Below are positions 17,404-40,233 of a DNA stretch of 64,000 bases, piece after piece (position 1 is the stretch's first letter; the number at the start of each line of letters is the position of its first letter). The stretch covers positions 62,001 through 126,000 of the forward strand of contig JAKVAZ010000017.1 of NCBI GenBank assembly GCA_022447225.1, given 5' to 3'. The notes under the pieces are model-generated. The model had not been told where the DNA came from, made no database searches, and saw nothing but the letters and a program-made list of their open reading frames with translations. The translations under genes were made by a program, and so were the position numbers. This DNA comes from Fuerstiella sp. (GTDB taxonomy: Bacteria > Planctomycetota > Planctomycetia > Planctomycetales > Planctomycetaceae).

Positions 17404-18747
17404 TCATTCCGACACCCGCGTGCGCCCGGTGAACTCTTTCATAAGAATTCGAAGTACAGCTGCGTATTCAAGCAGTTCGCTGCCGGATGTGCAGTCCTTA
17501 TCGGTAGCCGAGGCTTTTTGCGCCAACTGTGTCAGTTTGGCTGTGTCCAGTTCCCAGTTTTTGTCGGCTGCTGCCATGCTCAGCTCATCGTGAGCCTGCG
17601 TCTGTAAATCAAGGAATGCCGCACCCAGTTCCGCGGACTCCCGACGATAGGGAGAGAATTCAACAGGCTCGCGAACCCCCAGACGTGCCGGTTCTGCCGT
17701 ACGATTCACACCATTGGCTTGAGCAGTTGTCGATTTTCGAATCGACATGCTCAACTGAAAAAATCCCAGAATGAGCGCACCACAAACAAGAATAAGTCCA
17801 GGACTTTGGTGTTGATTTATTAACAGAACCAGTCCGGTAAACGCCAGTACACCAGCCAGTACAGTCACATGCCGAGATCGCTTTGTCTGGCGCTCCGTCT
17901 GTATCTGTCTGGTCATTGGAACAGCATCGTCCTCTGTTTCGGTGACCTGAACCGTATGTGATTCGACGGTTGGTGCCGTGATTGGCGGGTACTCGTCGAC
18001 GACAGCGATTACCACCGTTGTGTTATCCGAACCTCCTCGACAGTTTGCGAGATCAATCAACAGGCGTGATGCCTCACCTGCCGGTAACACATCGACGATC
18101 GCGCCAATCTCAGAATCTGTTACATGTCCGGTCAGTCCATCGGAACACAGGACAAATCGGTCGCCGGTACGGACATCAAAGGGGCCTTCAATATCAATTT
18201 CCACGTTCCTGTCAGGACCAAGACAACGAGTAATTACGTTACGCGGATGCAGTAATTCGGAACTTTCTGCGGTTGCGCGGCCCTGGCGTATCATTTCCCA
18301 CTGCAGGCTGTGATCGAATGTAAGCTGTTCGATCACAGCGTCGCGAATACGGTAAACCCGGCTGTCACCCACATGTCCGATCCAGGCTCCACTGCCGGAT
18401 AGAGACAACGTGCTGCACGTTGTCCCCATGTCAGCAAATTCAGGGTTCTCTCGAGCCTTGTCCCCAATAGCGCGCTTTGCGGCATCGAATGCTTCTTTGA
18501 GTCGTCCGGAAGGGGTTTCGGCATCCGACTTTGTGAACGCCAGCGGGAGAGTCTCAACAGTTATGCTACTGGCCAGATCTCCAACAGAATGACCGCCCAT
18601 TCCGTCAGCCACCACAAACAAATGACCCATTTCAGCCCATTCGGAATATTCCTTGCACAAGCGTACGGCCAGCGAGTCCTGATTAGCGGAACGCCGCATT
18701 CCCACATCGGTGAGCGATGCGTACTGCACCACTGGCTGGGCCGTCAT
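17404..18747 (-). CDS. Membrane-anchored PP2C-type Ser/Thr phosphatase
   Basis: The 447-residue protein has the PP2C/PPM metal-binding motifs in order: RRSANQD at 18-24, DGMGG at 48-52, GDSR at 127-130, SDGL at 202-205 and GGSDNTT at 238-244. It should be an Mn/Mg-dependent phosphoserine/threonine phosphatase. Two hydrophobic segments at about 293-311 and 316-335 form a hairpin that anchors it, leaving both the catalytic domain and a 110-residue C-terminal part in the cytoplasm. The ATG at 18747 has a GGGAT site upstream, and a longer reading has none. It lies 165 nt before the EF-G gene and may share its transcript. No partner kinase is in the window. Confidence 0.85.
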   Translation of the reverse strand: MTAQPVVQYASLTDVGMRRSANQDSLAVRLCKEYSEWAEMGHLFVVADGMGGHSVGDLASSITVETLPLAFTKSDAETPSGRLKEAFDAAKRAIGDKARENPEFADMGTTCSTLSLSGSGAWIGHVGDSRVYRIRDAVIEQLTFDHSLQWEMIRQGRATAESSELLHPRNVITRCLGPDRNVEIDIEGPFDVRTGDRFVLCSDGLTGHVTDSEIGAIVDVLPAGEASRLLIDLANCRGGSDNTTVVIAVVDEYPPITAPTVESHTVQVTETEDDAVPMTRQIQTERQTKRSRHVTVLAGVLAFTGLVLLINQHQSPGLILVCGALILGFFQLSMSIRKSTTAQANGVNRTAEPARLGVREPVEFSPYRRESAELGAAFLDLQTQAHDELSMAAADKNWELDTAKLTQLAQKASATDKDCTSGSELLEYAAVLRILMKEFTGRTRVSE

Positions 18748-19019
18748 GTCGTTGTATCCCAACATTGCGGCTGTTGCCGCAATCACACCATCGATTCGCG
18801 TGCAGCTAACGCTGCCACCACAGCAAACAGCCCTTTCCAGTCGACCTGAGGGACTGCAGGGCCAGCACATCGTCTCAACCCTCCGGCAATGGCTCCGAAG
18901 TCAGTGTAATCCAGGTCCGGTACAACGCAACCCGTTCAGTAAATCAGGACGATTATCAGGGTTAAAGAGAAAACCGCTGTTGCCGGAATCATCTTTAGCC
19001 GTTTTCAGGCGGCAACATT

Positions 19020-36618: not shown

Positions 36619-36691
<73 letters not shown>

Positions 36692-36708
36692 GTGAGAGAC
36701 CCCATAGG

Positions 36709-36779
36709 AGCGGGCGATGGGAATCGAACCCACACCACCAGCTTGGAAGGCTGGAGTTCTACCGTTGAACTACGCCCGC
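36709..36779 (-). tRNA. trnG: tRNA-Gly (anticodon TCC)
   Basis: The 71-nt cloverleaf has acceptor GCGGGCG/CGCCCGC, anticodon loop CTTCCAA with TCC, T-arm GGTTCGATTCC and discriminator U. No CCA is encoded. It lies 17 nt before tRNA-Thr(GGT). Confidence 0.95.
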
Positions 36780-36854
36780 TTGACTGCCGAACACAAACCC
36801 GACCAATCAGCAGAACCGATCAATCTGAATCCGCGCCAGACAGAATCTGTGAGG

Positions 36855-36936
36855 TGGGGGCGGCAGGATTCGAACCTGCGAAGGCTTCGCCACCAGATTT
36901 ACAGTCTGGCCCATTTGGCCGCTCTGGAACACCCCC
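36855..36936 (-). tRNA. trnY: tRNA-Tyr (anticodon GTA)
   Basis: The 82-nt sequence has a long variable arm as expected for bacterial tRNA-Tyr. The acceptor stem is GGGGGTG/CGCCCCC with one wobble pair, the anticodon loop is CTGTAAA with GTA, and the discriminator is A. The next bases are CCT, so no CCA is encoded. Confidence 0.94.
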
Positions 36937-37009
36937 CTCAACGCCTGCAGCTACAGCAACAAAAAAGAACGGCAAGCCGCTCCAACACACGCCTGCCGTA
37001 GTTCACGTT

Positions 37010-37082
37010 AGCTAGCGGTGGGACTCGAACCCACAACCTCCGGTTTACAAAACCGGAGCTCTGCCAATTGAGCTACGCTAGC
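37010..37082 (-). tRNA. trnT: tRNA-Thr (anticodon TGT)
   Basis: The cloverleaf has acceptor GCTAGCG/CGCTAGC, anticodon loop TTTGTAA with TGT, T-arm GGTTCGAGTCC and discriminator U. No CCA is encoded. It is the first gene of the tRNA-tuf cluster and lies about 30 nt downstream of a good -10 box. Confidence 0.95.
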
Positions 37083-37383
37083 GCAGACCGACCCCCGGTG
37101 GCGAGCCAGGAAGTATAACAATCGGCAAATCGCAGGCAAGGCCGATCCCGGAAAGCTTTGGAGTCTTCCCAGCATGGAAAAAACATGGACTTCATATTGG
37201 CACCGAACCCCAAAATTAAGTGGGGACCGTGTTCGGGAACAGGCACTTGTCGGTTCACGTGACACACTCGAGAGAACATCGATGGTGAGATCTCGATTCC
37301 ATTGGCCTGAGAGCCAGCCAAACGAATAATGAGTAGCTACACACCGCTGAAACCTGTAAGCCGCCGAATTTGGATTTTCGGCA
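37083..37383. other. Gap between tRNA cluster and sigma factor gene
   Basis: Besides the promoter listed separately, this 301-nt region holds only the end of the sigma factor transcript. No protein gene is convincing. Confidence 0.5.
37112..37139 (-). promoter_or_regulatory. Promoter of the tRNA-tuf operon
   Basis: A -35 box TTGCCT (37134-37139) and a -10 box TATACT (37112-37117) are separated by 16 nt, about 30 nt before the first tRNA gene. The bases after the -10 box are GC-rich, like the discriminators of stringently controlled stable-RNA promoters. An inverted repeat ATCGGC/GCCGAT (37121-37146) brackets the -35 box. Confidence 0.5.
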
Positions 37384-39048
37384 TCAAAACTCAGGGATTT
37401 CGACTCGTTTGTGCTTGGCGATCTTTCGCATTTTGTCCAGAGTCCTGACTTCGATCTGGCGGACACGTTCTTTGGTCACTCCCAGGCGATGACCAACCTG
37501 CTCAAGTGTTTCGGGTTCCGACCCTCTCAGCAGACCAAAACGACAGGAAATGACCTTACGTTCCCGACCATCCAGTTCCTCCAGAATTTCACTCAACGCT
37601 GTGCGCTGAGCCATATTCTTGATTTCCGCGGCGAACTGATTGGCTCTCAGGTCATCCGACTGCTGGAACAATTCTTCGTAGCCGGTACGGAACCGATCGT
37701 TGCGAGTATGTTCTGCAGGAACGGATCTTGCGAAGTTCTTCATGATGGCCCAGGACGCATACGTAGAGAATTTGTTGCCTCTCGCGTAATCGAATTTCTC
37801 GATCGCCCGAATCAGCGAGATGTTGCCATCGCTGACCAGTTCAAAGAAATTCACGCCTGGATTCAGATGTCGTCTGGCAATTGACACGACCAGCCGCAGA
37901 TTTGAGCGAATCAGGAGACTTTTGATTTTCGCAACATCTTCCATTACAGACGTCAGTTTCCGGGCTACTTTTCCAACCGGTCGACTGAGGTCCAGTTCGG
38001 CCTGAAGTTCACTCGCCTGCATTTTGAGAAAGTTCATCAGGCGAAAATAGTGCTGTTCCTGTGGTTTATTGAGCAGCGGGACTCGATACAGATCCGCCAG
38101 GTAAGCTGGCAGACCGGAAGGCGCTCGAACTGCTCCCTTCCTGTCATCATAGTCCGGTGCGTCCACACAGATAACGCGTTCGGCATCCGGCTTGTGGAAT
38201 TCAGGGCTGTCCATAAATTCGATTGGAGCTGCCTTTAAACGCTGGGCCCCTACTGATGCGAGTACTGCCTTAATGGAAGACTGAGACCGACTGAATCGTC
38301 GCGCCAGATCAGCCACCGGTACTCCGTGGTCGTGCAAATCGTACACCAGCTCCTGATGCTTATTAGACAACTGCCGTCCAGGATCCCCAAACAAAGCATT
38401 TTCCGGGTGTTTTCGATCATAGTCACGGAGGGTGTAACGAATGGTTTCCGCTGCCCGTTTGAACTGTAGCCCAAGTCGGCGGCTTACTGCAGTCAGACCG
38501 AAACCGTCCGCAGCGAGTATTCTCGCCTGAAGAATCACCTGCTGCCGTTCTGCACCGGTCATTTGCCGAAAGGTTCGTCCCCGATCGATTTCTCTTCGAT
38601 GGCTGGCAACGAATCGTTCGAGAGTATTTTGTGGAATCACGACCCTCAGACGTCCGTTTACTTTCATTCGCCTGCTGGCGAGTCCGCGGTTTCTCCAACG
38701 GTCGACTGTCTTTGTCGAGACATTAAATCGGTCACTGACCTGCTGTACGGTCAGGACCGGGATGTCTGTTTCGCGTACTTCCTGTCCCAGACTTTCGGAA
38801 ATATCCTCAATTAAGCAACGAAGATCGTGGAGCAGATCATCTGCGGGCAATTCCACGTCGGCGCAGGAATTCGGGCGATAGCCTGTGATGTGCTCGCAGA
38901 TATCGCCGTAAGTTTGAGTCTCTCTGGACTGTAGTTTCTCCAGGAGAGATTCCGTTTGCACAATCTGCCGGTGTCGCACAGGCTGCGGTGCAAACCGCTT
39001 CTGCTGAAACGCAAGTTGTGCGATCATTTGCGAATGGTAACGCGTCAT
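37384..39048 (-). CDS. Sigma-70 family factor with long HTH-containing N-terminus
   Basis: The C-terminal 240 residues of this 554-residue protein are a sigma-70 factor. Region 2 spans about 375-450 (SNLRLVVSIARRHLNPGVNFF, GNISLIRAIEKFDYARGNKFSTYASW) and region 4 about 485-545 (TLEQVGHRLGVTKERVRQIEVRTLDKMRK). Region 3 is almost missing. The first 300 residues have a MerR/excisionase-like helix-turn-helix at about 98-124 (LTVQQVSDRFNVSTKTVDRW). Two more HTH-like segments lie near 183-210 and 240-262. Region 1.1 is not recognisable. The ATG at 39048 follows a perfect AGGAGG. It is an alternative or group 2-like sigma factor, and its regulon is unknown. Confidence 0.85.
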   Translation of the reverse strand: MTRYHSQMIAQLAFQQKRFAPQPVRHRQIVQTESLLEKLQSRETQTYGDICEHITGYRPNSCADVELPADDLLHDLRCLIEDISESLGQEVRETDIPVLTVQQVSDRFNVSTKTVDRWRNRGLASRRMKVNGRLRVVIPQNTLERFVASHRREIDRGRTFRQMTGAERQQVILQARILAADGFGLTAVSRRLGLQFKRAAETIRYTLRDYDRKHPENALFGDPGRQLSNKHQELVYDLHDHGVPVADLARRFSRSQSSIKAVLASVGAQRLKAAPIEFMDSPEFHKPDAERVICVDAPDYDDRKGAVRAPSGLPAYLADLYRVPLLNKPQEQHYFRLMNFLKMQASELQAELDLSRPVGKVARKLTSVMEDVAKIKSLLIRSNLRLVVSIARRHLNPGVNFFELVSDGNISLIRAIEKFDYARGNKFSTYASWAIMKNFARSVPAEHTRNDRFRTGYEELFQQSDDLRANQFAAEIKNMAQRTALSEILEELDGRERKVISCRFGLLRGSEPETLEQVGHRLGVTKERVRQIEVRTLDKMRKIAKHKRVEIPEF

Positions 39049-39765
39049 AGTTGACCTCCTGATTCACTCGATCAAACAAATTGCCAGGTTCTGTTCCCGC
39101 TGTTGTCGAACTGAATTTGCAAAGCGTGTGCCATCAACAACACCGTGTCATGGTCAGGGCCAGTCACCGGACCATTCCTGATTGTCCTGAGTCATAGAGT
39201 TTCAGTAATTTTTGGCCTCAGACGTAAAACAAAAAAACTGTGCGAATTGCACCCGGTCAACATCTAACAGGGACTCAAAGATTGCAAAAATGTTCGTCAA
39301 AACCCCACCAGGATTACATTTCTGATGAAACTTCCTCGGTCAACAGGCCAGTACTGATCAGGTCGACCGGCAGCTTGTAAGACTCGACGTTGGCGACATC
39401 AAAACTAGGGCAAATGCGCCATCACAACGATGACACCTGTCCCAAATAAGAGATCGGAATATTTACAATCCACGACAGCAGGAGAAAACGGTTAACCGAG
39501 CATGCTGCTGCAGTAAATTGCTTCACTCTGACGAAATCCGCCTCAATTCGTGCGGCCGGACATCCGTTCGGAATCACCTTCCTCATTTCCGTAAATAGTT
39601 GCCTGGCAGTAACTAAGCCCCGGACAAATTTGAGGAACTTTGTAATCATTCATTGAGGAACATAAATTGCACAGTGCGAAGACTGTGCCGATTTAATCGC
39701 ACTGATAAAGTCGAATTTCCTGGTCAACGGCGGTATTGCGTCGGTCCTTTTATGAGTTCTCCCGC
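39049..39765. other. Intergenic region before the two-TM protein
   Basis: This stretch of about 700 nt carries the ribosome site of the sigma factor at its left end and no convincing gene. A perfect 7-bp hairpin (GCACAGT/ACTGTGC, loop of six) lies at 39669-39688. It lacks a T-run on either side. A 75-codon minus-strand frame at 39422-39649 has no ribosome site. Confidence 0.5.
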
Positions 39766-40233
39766 ATGTTCCACGAAGCAGCGACCACCTACCTTTTGTT
39801 TGGAACCCTCGTTTCCTCGGTGGGTATGGCGATGATTGTGCTCCATGTCATCCAACGCCGAAATCATCTGGATGATGAGTCTCTTTCTGATGCAGATCGC
39901 CGTTTTTTTGAGCAACAGTACCGCCGTCGGATGCAGACATCAGCCTTTGCAGTGACCCTTGGCGCACTGATTGGTCTGTTTGGTTACATCAGGGCGCTGG
40001 AGACGTCACCCATTTTTGCTACCTGCTACGTGATGGCGCTGCTGCTGCTTTCGCTCTGGCTGATTCTGCTGGCACTTAGTGACGCGGTGGCGTCACGTGT
40101 ACATTCCAGCCGGGTTGACAGACGCCAGAGAAAGTTGCGGGAGTCACTGCAGGAGGCGCTTGTGGAGTTGAAAAACGTTAATGACATCTCCATGGGAGGC
40201 ATCGACTGCGACGCATCACACGATCACAATTAA
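39766..40233 (+). CDS. Small membrane protein with hydrophobic segments
   Basis: The protein (155 residues from the ATG at 39766; an in-frame TTG 30 nt upstream is possible) has a first hydrophobic segment near residues 8-30, a charged loop rich in Asp, Arg and Gln, and two more hydrophobic stretches near 58-75 and 82-105. The C-terminal tail is charged and ends with a His/Asp-rich stretch. No domain was recognised and no strong ribosome site was seen. It is convergent with the DUF1552 gene. The function is unknown. Confidence 0.6.
   Translation: MFHEAATTYLLFGTLVSSVGMAMIVLHVIQRRNHLDDESLSDADRRFFEQQYRRRMQTSAFAVTLGALIGLFGYIRALETSPIFATCYVMALLLLSLWLILLALSDAVASRVHSSRVDRRQRKLRESLQEALVELKNVNDISMGGIDCDASHDHN

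Follow-up and report, generated by a model that had tools for sequence, protein, structure and literature searches.

What does a sigma factor do with HTH domains of its own, when sigma factors are usually steered by separate activators and anti-sigma factors? The question is raised by a gene in the stretch of 64,000 nucleotides that we analyzed (hereafter the window; Fuerstiella sp., assembly GCA_022447225.1, contig JAKVAZ010000017.1), whose product joins a long N-terminal part to the conserved regions of the sigma-70 family, and which lies beside tRNA genes and tuf. If the N-terminal part does bind DNA, promoter melting and DNA docking would be united in one chain, which is a different way of wiring a promoter. 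A literature search found no description of this protein; an earlier mention in Jogler 2012 (PMC3497475) is possible. What is new here is the decay of the sigma half with the N-terminal array kept, a composite upstream element together with a sigma-54-like site, and the tRNA-tuf order in about half of the class loci.

Domain architecture of the protein

The start of the gene is preceded by AGGAGG six bases 5' of the ATG, orthologs in most loci have their start at this ATG or a few residues from it, and class orthologs are mostly 553-559 aa long, with a median pI of 9.5 (125 orthologs). The 554-residue protein consists of a 270-residue N-terminus followed by sigma regions 1.2, 2 and 4 (Table 1). 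AlphaFold models the whole protein with a pLDDT of 85 and a pTM of 0.48, and residues 1-270 alone with 92.9 and 0.67. Our alignments leave out L001-L008 (the window's own genome), L014 and L090 (cut by contig ends), and L047 and L080 (broken frame). Selection at 72% identity left 65 of the 125 sequences; L052 and L117 were removed by hand from alignment A1, which holds the window protein and 63 others, and alignment A2 has 37 rows.

Table 1. Features of the sigma factor gene and its surroundings (positions within the window).
Feature	Residues	Position	Strand	Basis or remark
Sigma-70-family gene, 554 aa, ATG start		37384..39048	-	Coordinates exactly as in the original prediction; 106 class sequences (window included) aligned
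Helical N-terminal domain, fold unassigned	1-92	38773..39048	-	AlphaFold prediction
Predicted MerR/BldC/Xis-type winged HTH	95-152	38593..38766	-	Pfam and VIA-align
Predicted homeodomain-like HTH	160-217	38398..38571	-	VIA-align
Predicted resolvase/LuxR/sigma-4-like HTH (HTH_38)	222-270	38239..38385	-	Pfam and VIA-align
Sigma region 1.2	311-355	37984..38118	-	phmmer alignment with HrdB/SigA
Sigma region 2	379-447	37708..37914	-	Pfam and class alignment
Sigma region 4	484-546	37411..37599	-	Pfam
tRNA-Thr(TGT), Tyr, Gly, Thr(GGT) ahead of tuf		36619..37082	-	Neighbours, not parts of the protein
Conserved promoter of the tRNA-Thr(TGT)-tuf operon, CTTGCC-N17-TATACT		37112..37140	-	Sigma-70-like
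Sigma-54-like site TGGCACACGCTTTGCA (GG-N10-GC)		39118..39133	-	70-85 bases before the ATG
First half of the composite element, CGAACATTTTTGCAATC		39280..39296	-	CGTA part lost in the window

A sigma-70-family factor makes up the C-terminal 245 residues. Pfam finds Sigma70_r2 at residues 379-436 (E 7e-15, 55 bits against a cut-off of 24) and Sigma70_r4 at residues 489-542 (E 2e-20, 72.6 bits against 24.1), region 1.2 aligns with HrdB/SigA from residue 311 by phmmer, with the structural match starting at residue 310, and HrdB, SigA and RpoS come out as the best sequence matches in the PDB. Region 3 had originally been described as nearly missing, and indeed we found no Pfam match to it at E<=1 in the window protein, where regions 2 and 4 are separated by 36 residues (448-483, own boundaries) or 52 (437-488, Pfam boundaries); pLDDT is below 50 at residues 446-469. 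The protein is not a primary (group 1) RpoD, as it reaches 145 bits on the RpoD equivalog model TIGR02393 against a cut-off of 354, nor is it an ECF (group 4) factor, as it has region 1.2, even though the lack of region 3 is a trait of ECF factors too. Its own genome also encodes two RpoD-like factors (L003 and L004), a further factor (L005) and a short paralog (L002, on G000:C8), which has no HTH array and is 31% identical over residues 248-545; short copies resembling the latter are present in many planctomycete genomes.

Y430 and W433, at the positions needed for melting in sigma70, are kept in all 106 class sequences, which makes the class proteins look like working sigma factors. At positions 434, 437 and 440, those that read the -10 element in sigma70, the same 106 sequences all have A434, K437 and A440, where E. 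coli sigma70 has W434, Q437 and T440; because of this constant difference from RpoD, the class protein would be expected to recognize a different -10 element. Non-primary sigma-70 factors likewise contain regions 1.2, 2 and 4, but here a 270-residue HTH array stands in front, region 3 is missing, and A434, K437 and A440 set region 2 apart.

HTH units had been predicted ahead of regions 2 and 4, and three are supported by AlphaFold, VIA-align and Pfam, the last across 64 aligned members (window included). In the window protein itself, HTH_17 is found at residues 98-150 with 27.4 bits (cut-off 27), HTH_38 at residues 224-259 and MerR_1 stay below their cut-offs (23.3 against 27 and 14.3 against 21.6 bits, respectively), and the middle unit has no Pfam match. 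Over the 64 members, however, matches at E<=0.01 recur (HTH_17 in 61, MerR_1 in 42, HTH_38 in 41), which argues that the signal is not due to chance. In the first HTH, G122 and L123 are invariant in these 64 sequences, and R117 and R119 are also conserved.

By VIA-align, residues 95-152 of the model match BldC (6amk: Z 6.7, rmsd 2.1 over 50 residues, 30% identity), HiNmlR and RacA, all at Z 6.0-6.7, which identifies a predicted MerR-type winged HTH; phage Xis, terminase small subunits and MerR proteins are matched as well. Residues 160-217 resemble POU homeodomains (1oct: Z 6.3, rmsd 2.7 over 55), and residues 222-270 resemble Tn3/Hin resolvase, LuxR-type and sigma-4 HTHs (5cy1: Z 7.0, rmsd 2.4 over 45; 3c3w: Z 7.3, rmsd 1.1 over 42). 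With the N-terminus alone, Foldseek gave no row with E<=0.001 and VIA-align none with Z>=8, and the modest range of 6.0-7.7 can reflect just a common arrangement. The three predicted units and the wing of the first agree with the Pfam matches across orthologs. Among the 50 VIA-align rows listed for the N-terminus, none extends below residue 94; in the domain before it, T55 is invariant in all 37 rows of alignment A2. When the whole model was used in the fold searches, all titles among the 50 rows listed for each search were those of sigma factors or polymerase initiation complexes.

Residues 95-152 share their fold with BldC, MerR and Xis (28-30% identity to BldC over 50-54 residues), but unlike in these proteins two more HTHs and a sigma factor follow, and the model has no coiled coil or effector domain. 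The suggestion that the N-terminus senses a ligand is thus unsupported, as Pfam finds no effector domain and the AlphaFold model puts further HTHs in the place of the MerR-type C-terminal part. The tandem three-helix units of Reb1 and c-Myb align with residues 154-270 (Z 6.2-7.7), but at an rmsd of 7-9, so that probably the arrangement alone is shared. SigG1/ECF56 is reported to have, likewise, regions 2 and 4, a short linker and an accessory domain, which there is C-terminal and SnoaL-like, whereas the protein described here keeps region 1.2 and carries its extra part, with three HTHs, at the N-terminus (PMC7730460).

The upstream region and a candidate site for the array

In the class, a k-mer count without any prior motif, over 110 of the 127 upstream regions after removal of near-copies, found GCGAACTT in 29 of the 110, where 1.35 were expected. 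This sequence is part of a composite element whose fullest form reads GTTCGCATG-CGAAC-TTTTT-N-CGTC-N-CGTA, with CGAAC and CGTA 33-35 bases apart in 45 of 47 cases. The pattern CGAAC-N27..31-CGTA occurs in 46 of 107 class regions, never on the other strand, and once in reversed form; these regions are not independent, several genomes being present in both collections. When eight whole genomes were searched with a strict form, six of the seven matches fell at this gene, with none in the control, and the composite element appears nearly private to it.

Our best reading, which we hold at about even confidence, is that the protein is an alternative sigma factor into which a DNA-binding module is built, probably autoregulated. 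Region 2 would bind core RNA polymerase and melt DNA, and the HTH array would bring the holoenzyme to a site of its own, a single chain thus serving as sigma factor and activator. The upstream region of the gene, with GTTCGCATGCGAAC/CGAAC..CGTA, offers a candidate binding region, and the CGAAC..CGTA element would be the candidate site of the array. It is the only candidate site found, and as it sits in front of this very gene, the likeliest first target would be the gene's own expression.

Several observations weigh against this reading. The element is absent from all 20 upstream regions from other classes (de novo k-mers over 59 distant upstream regions gave nothing clear either), the pattern is unmatched in 61 of the 107 class regions, and the window and its closest relative L009 retain only the first half. 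In half of the genomes sampled from the phylum, nothing matches the array. Moreover, region 4.2 is RpoD-like, and a -35 of the TTGACA type would suit such a region better than GAACTT does.

The element is also similar to an ECF promoter, so that another sigma factor may read it. It could then be an ordinary promoter of this kind (GAACTT-N14/15-CGTC, of the ECF consensus type), with the array binding elsewhere and the gene standing in the middle of a sigma cascade, below ECF and/or sigma-54. We consider this explanation, the main rival, rather unlikely, and it is not exclusive of an autoregulated factor with its own docking module. The shape and spacing of the element speak for it, as does the enrichment of sigma-54-like sites on the coding strand: taking at least 10 of 12 positions of the consensus, such a site lies within 400 bases in 26 of the 127 regions, all 26 in the class and the window among them, against 1 of 127 on the other strand. 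A Sigma54_DBD gene is present in the window's own genome. The position of a sigma-54-like site in front of a gene of the sigma-70 family points to a sigma cascade, and RpoN may also drive the gene in window-like genomes through this site.

The loose pattern GAACTTTTN{10,13}CGTC likewise favours an ECF promoter: across 12 genomes it has 75 sites, where its reversed control has 41. As eight of these sites are at this gene and the excess extends beyond it, a small regulon is possible. However, the excess may be partly coding, many sites reading GAACTTTTC by eye, and the element in full, CGTA included, is almost confined to this gene, unlike what a shared ECF regulon would show. The palindrome GTTCGYRYRCGAAC has 14 sites against 3 in 12 genomes. 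Of these, five lie ahead of this gene, three of them in no open frame of >=120 residues and two overlapping frames of 185 and 206 residues; of the nine others, eight fall within frames of 346-694 residues and one within a frame of 197, all frames being counted from stop to stop, a weak criterion in G+C-rich DNA. Neither the palindrome nor the loose pattern brought out a regulon of the upstream element in the 12 genomes. Beyond the upstream region lies a divergent ORF of 165 aa (39736-40233, + strand) with no NCBIfam match at E<=1e-5.

Distribution of the array and decay of the sigma half

The phylum was the widest group that we searched with the array profile, the genome rows being ordered by kinship. 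The array is present in 136 of the 391 genomes sampled, nearly always in one copy, and in 60 of the 61 labelled as the window's own genome, genus, family or class. From this spread we infer that the gene is old rather than a recent fusion, yet absent from part of the phylum. In a contig search, the best 80 of 400 relatives are all planctomycete or Planctomycetota by title; plasmid records with matches number 245, none covering 80% of the query. Two f53 genomes are peculiar in that the array profile matches residues 1-82 only (L241 in G061, and G130:C154), and the sigma factor behind them has a good region 2; this may be another kind of fusion.

Outside the coordinates 37384-39048, in the orthologs of other classes, we found that the sigma half decays while the array is kept. 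We analyzed 59 loci that do not belong to the main class set (58 of other classes, and L242, a distant member of the class), and called decayed those with less than 40 bits on our own region-2 model, built from class members, on which the own-genome RpoDs score 75 bits, the short paralog 65 and L005 50. By this measure 37 of the 59 loci are decayed (12 in family f7, 11 in f67, nine in f89, three in f94 and two in f96). Pfam served as an outside check, and finds Sigma70_r2 at E<=0.01 in three of the 37 against all 22 other distant orthologs. Y430 and W433, present in 95% and 85% of 20 intact distant sequences, are mostly replaced in the 37 decayed ones. Mean pairwise identity of region 2 is 0.48 in the intact distant set (190 pairs) and 0.22 in the decayed set (600 sampled pairs); for the three HTHs it is 0.26-0.34 and 0.29-0.33, respectively. 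Within the class the values are 0.79 for region 2 and 0.44-0.61 for the HTHs.

Region 4 was not found either in f67 and three f94 sequences. Members of f7, f89 and f96 tested singly still have a diverged Sigma70_r4. Our own region-4 model misses this region in several families; Pfam scores Sigma70_r4 above its cut-off in L208, L211, L236 and L224 and not in L219. Sigma70_r4 matches 24 of the 37 decayed sequences, though some of these matches fall on an N-terminal HTH, as seen for L131; L221 stops at a contig edge, so that a missing region 4 there is not evidence. In L231, our own models find region 2 weakened and almost no region 4. Several decayed genomes (e.g. G002, G303 and G352) also have a match to the sigma part at another place, in a short paralog.

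On a quick tree of the array, from which L241 was left out as it was from the decay counts, the decayed state needs three changes, at least two of them forced by well-supported branches, which indicates that decay of region 2 arose more than once, unless the region was regained. The decayed genes are unlikely to be pseudogenes, because across whole families their frames remain long and uninterrupted. The immediate upstream neighbour in other classes is often a gene of the menaquinone family PF02621: its cluster covers 30 of the 59 loci, the family was confirmed in all four cluster members tested, and the cluster spans intact f60 loci as well as decayed f67, f7, f89 and f96 loci. This common neighbour supports the orthology of the intact and decayed forms.

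These data lead us to propose, at slightly less than even confidence, that a sigma factor gained a site-specific array early in the phylum and that several lineages then lost sigma function, the array living on as a regulator, with graded forms still alive. Such graded forms are proteins with regions 2 and 4 intact, L231, proteins that lost region 2 and kept a region-4-like HTH, and proteins in which both are gone or nearly so. As the array outlives region 2 in at least two lineages, we regard it as the part on which selection has acted lastingly, with the sigma half as an effector that can be removed. This suggests that a transcription factor can be made from a sigma factor, and the decay series makes the passage from sigma factor to ordinary regulator directly testable, in a gene that is near-universal in the sampled class.

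The decayed proteins also bear on a further explanation, namely that the N-terminal HTHs hold proteins (an anti-sigma factor, core, or a dimer partner) or inhibit the sigma domains rather than bind DNA. HTH folds serve in protein contacts too, residues 1-92 have an unassigned fold, and the target site is only a candidate. However, R117 and R119 are kept in 97% and 95% of the decayed set, where the presumed partner sigma domains are degraded, and residues 1-265 are basic (pI 9.9); we regard protein contacts as an improbable role. The original proposal, that this sigma factor carries an operator-binding domain, is plausible, given the nearly private conserved element upstream and the survival of the array after loss of the sigma domains.

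The tRNA-tuf neighbourhood and remaining alternatives

As originally noted, the gene lies beside a tRNA-tuf cluster: four tRNAs and tuf follow downstream on the same strand, with a gap of about 300 bp between the stop codon and the first tRNA, and the run behind the gene in the window includes tuf, rpoC, rpsG, fusA, L3, S3, secY and rpoA. Among 71 named class contigs with enough sequence, 34 have tRNA-Thr(TGT) downstream on the same strand within 2 kb, 28 of these in the order Thr-Tyr-Gly-Thr, and among class genome loci 15 of 29 have it within 1.5 kb. Such linkage could mean that the sigma factor is dedicated to the downstream tRNA-tuf-ribosomal cluster, matching translation capacity to growth, which we strongly doubt. 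The gene stays where this order is missing, namely at roughly half the class loci and at all 20 loci from other classes, none of which has tRNA-Thr(TGT) downstream.

A lead on such a dedication comes from Rhodopirellula baltica, where RB12251 (567 aa, pI 9.4, annotated as 'RNA polymerase specialized sigma factor' and also called rfaY) is a possible ortholog, a guess by size and pI alone. RB12251 is reported among the genes repressed by heat, cold and salt, along with ribosomal protein genes, which would fit a dedicated factor, and it is named together with rpoN as down under salt (PMC2754498).

The promoters themselves speak against a dedicated factor, and a role at the tRNA-tuf promoter, one of the functions first envisaged, is not borne out. 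The operon promoter is sigma-70-like, with TTGC in place of TTGAC, and the other tRNA genes of the same genome have both TTGA and TTGC -35 boxes by eye (30 of 41 tRNA loci). A search of the loci for TTGAC or TTGC with TATAHT gave 42 matches, of which the 30 before tRNA-Thr(TGT) all have TTGC and nine of the 12 others TTGAC. Genome-wide, the pattern CTTGCN{17,19}TATAYT is not consistently enriched over its reversed control (own genome 1 against 5, G307 5 against 9, G024 2 against 9, G291 0 against 1, G121 10 against 7, G357 8 against 0). With both -35 types at tRNA genes and no consistent enrichment of the TTGC type, a dedicated tRNA/tuf promoter was dropped as a candidate. The original interpretation thus proved half right, the HTH fusion and the place beside tRNA-tuf standing, ligand sensing and the promoter role not.

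In close relatives, the tRNA-Thr-tuf promoter (37112-37160, - strand) contains a conserved GATCNGCCTTGCCTG block. As the block exceeds a -35 box, a further operator may overlap this promoter.

Two minor observations concern translation genes and their surroundings. A PP2C-type Ser/Thr phosphatase gene, with a score below the model cut-off, lies within the ribosomal cluster between fusA and rpsG (17404-18870, - strand). Seven to eight of the nine f89 loci (L232-L240) have similar genes on the opposite strand downstream. One of each was tested, giving rpsI (L239) and rplM (L237), that is, translation genes again.

Finally, the N-terminus has next to no chance of being an ordinary sigma region 1.1 or the product of a wrongly called start, as region 1.2 begins at about residue 310 and ortholog starts agree, and this candidate is refuted by the phylum profile search, by the predicted HTH folds, and by the window's own genome, where a search with the N-terminus returned only itself and one match at E 0.13 and the other sigma factors, RpoD-like ones included, reach at most 6 bits on the array profile.
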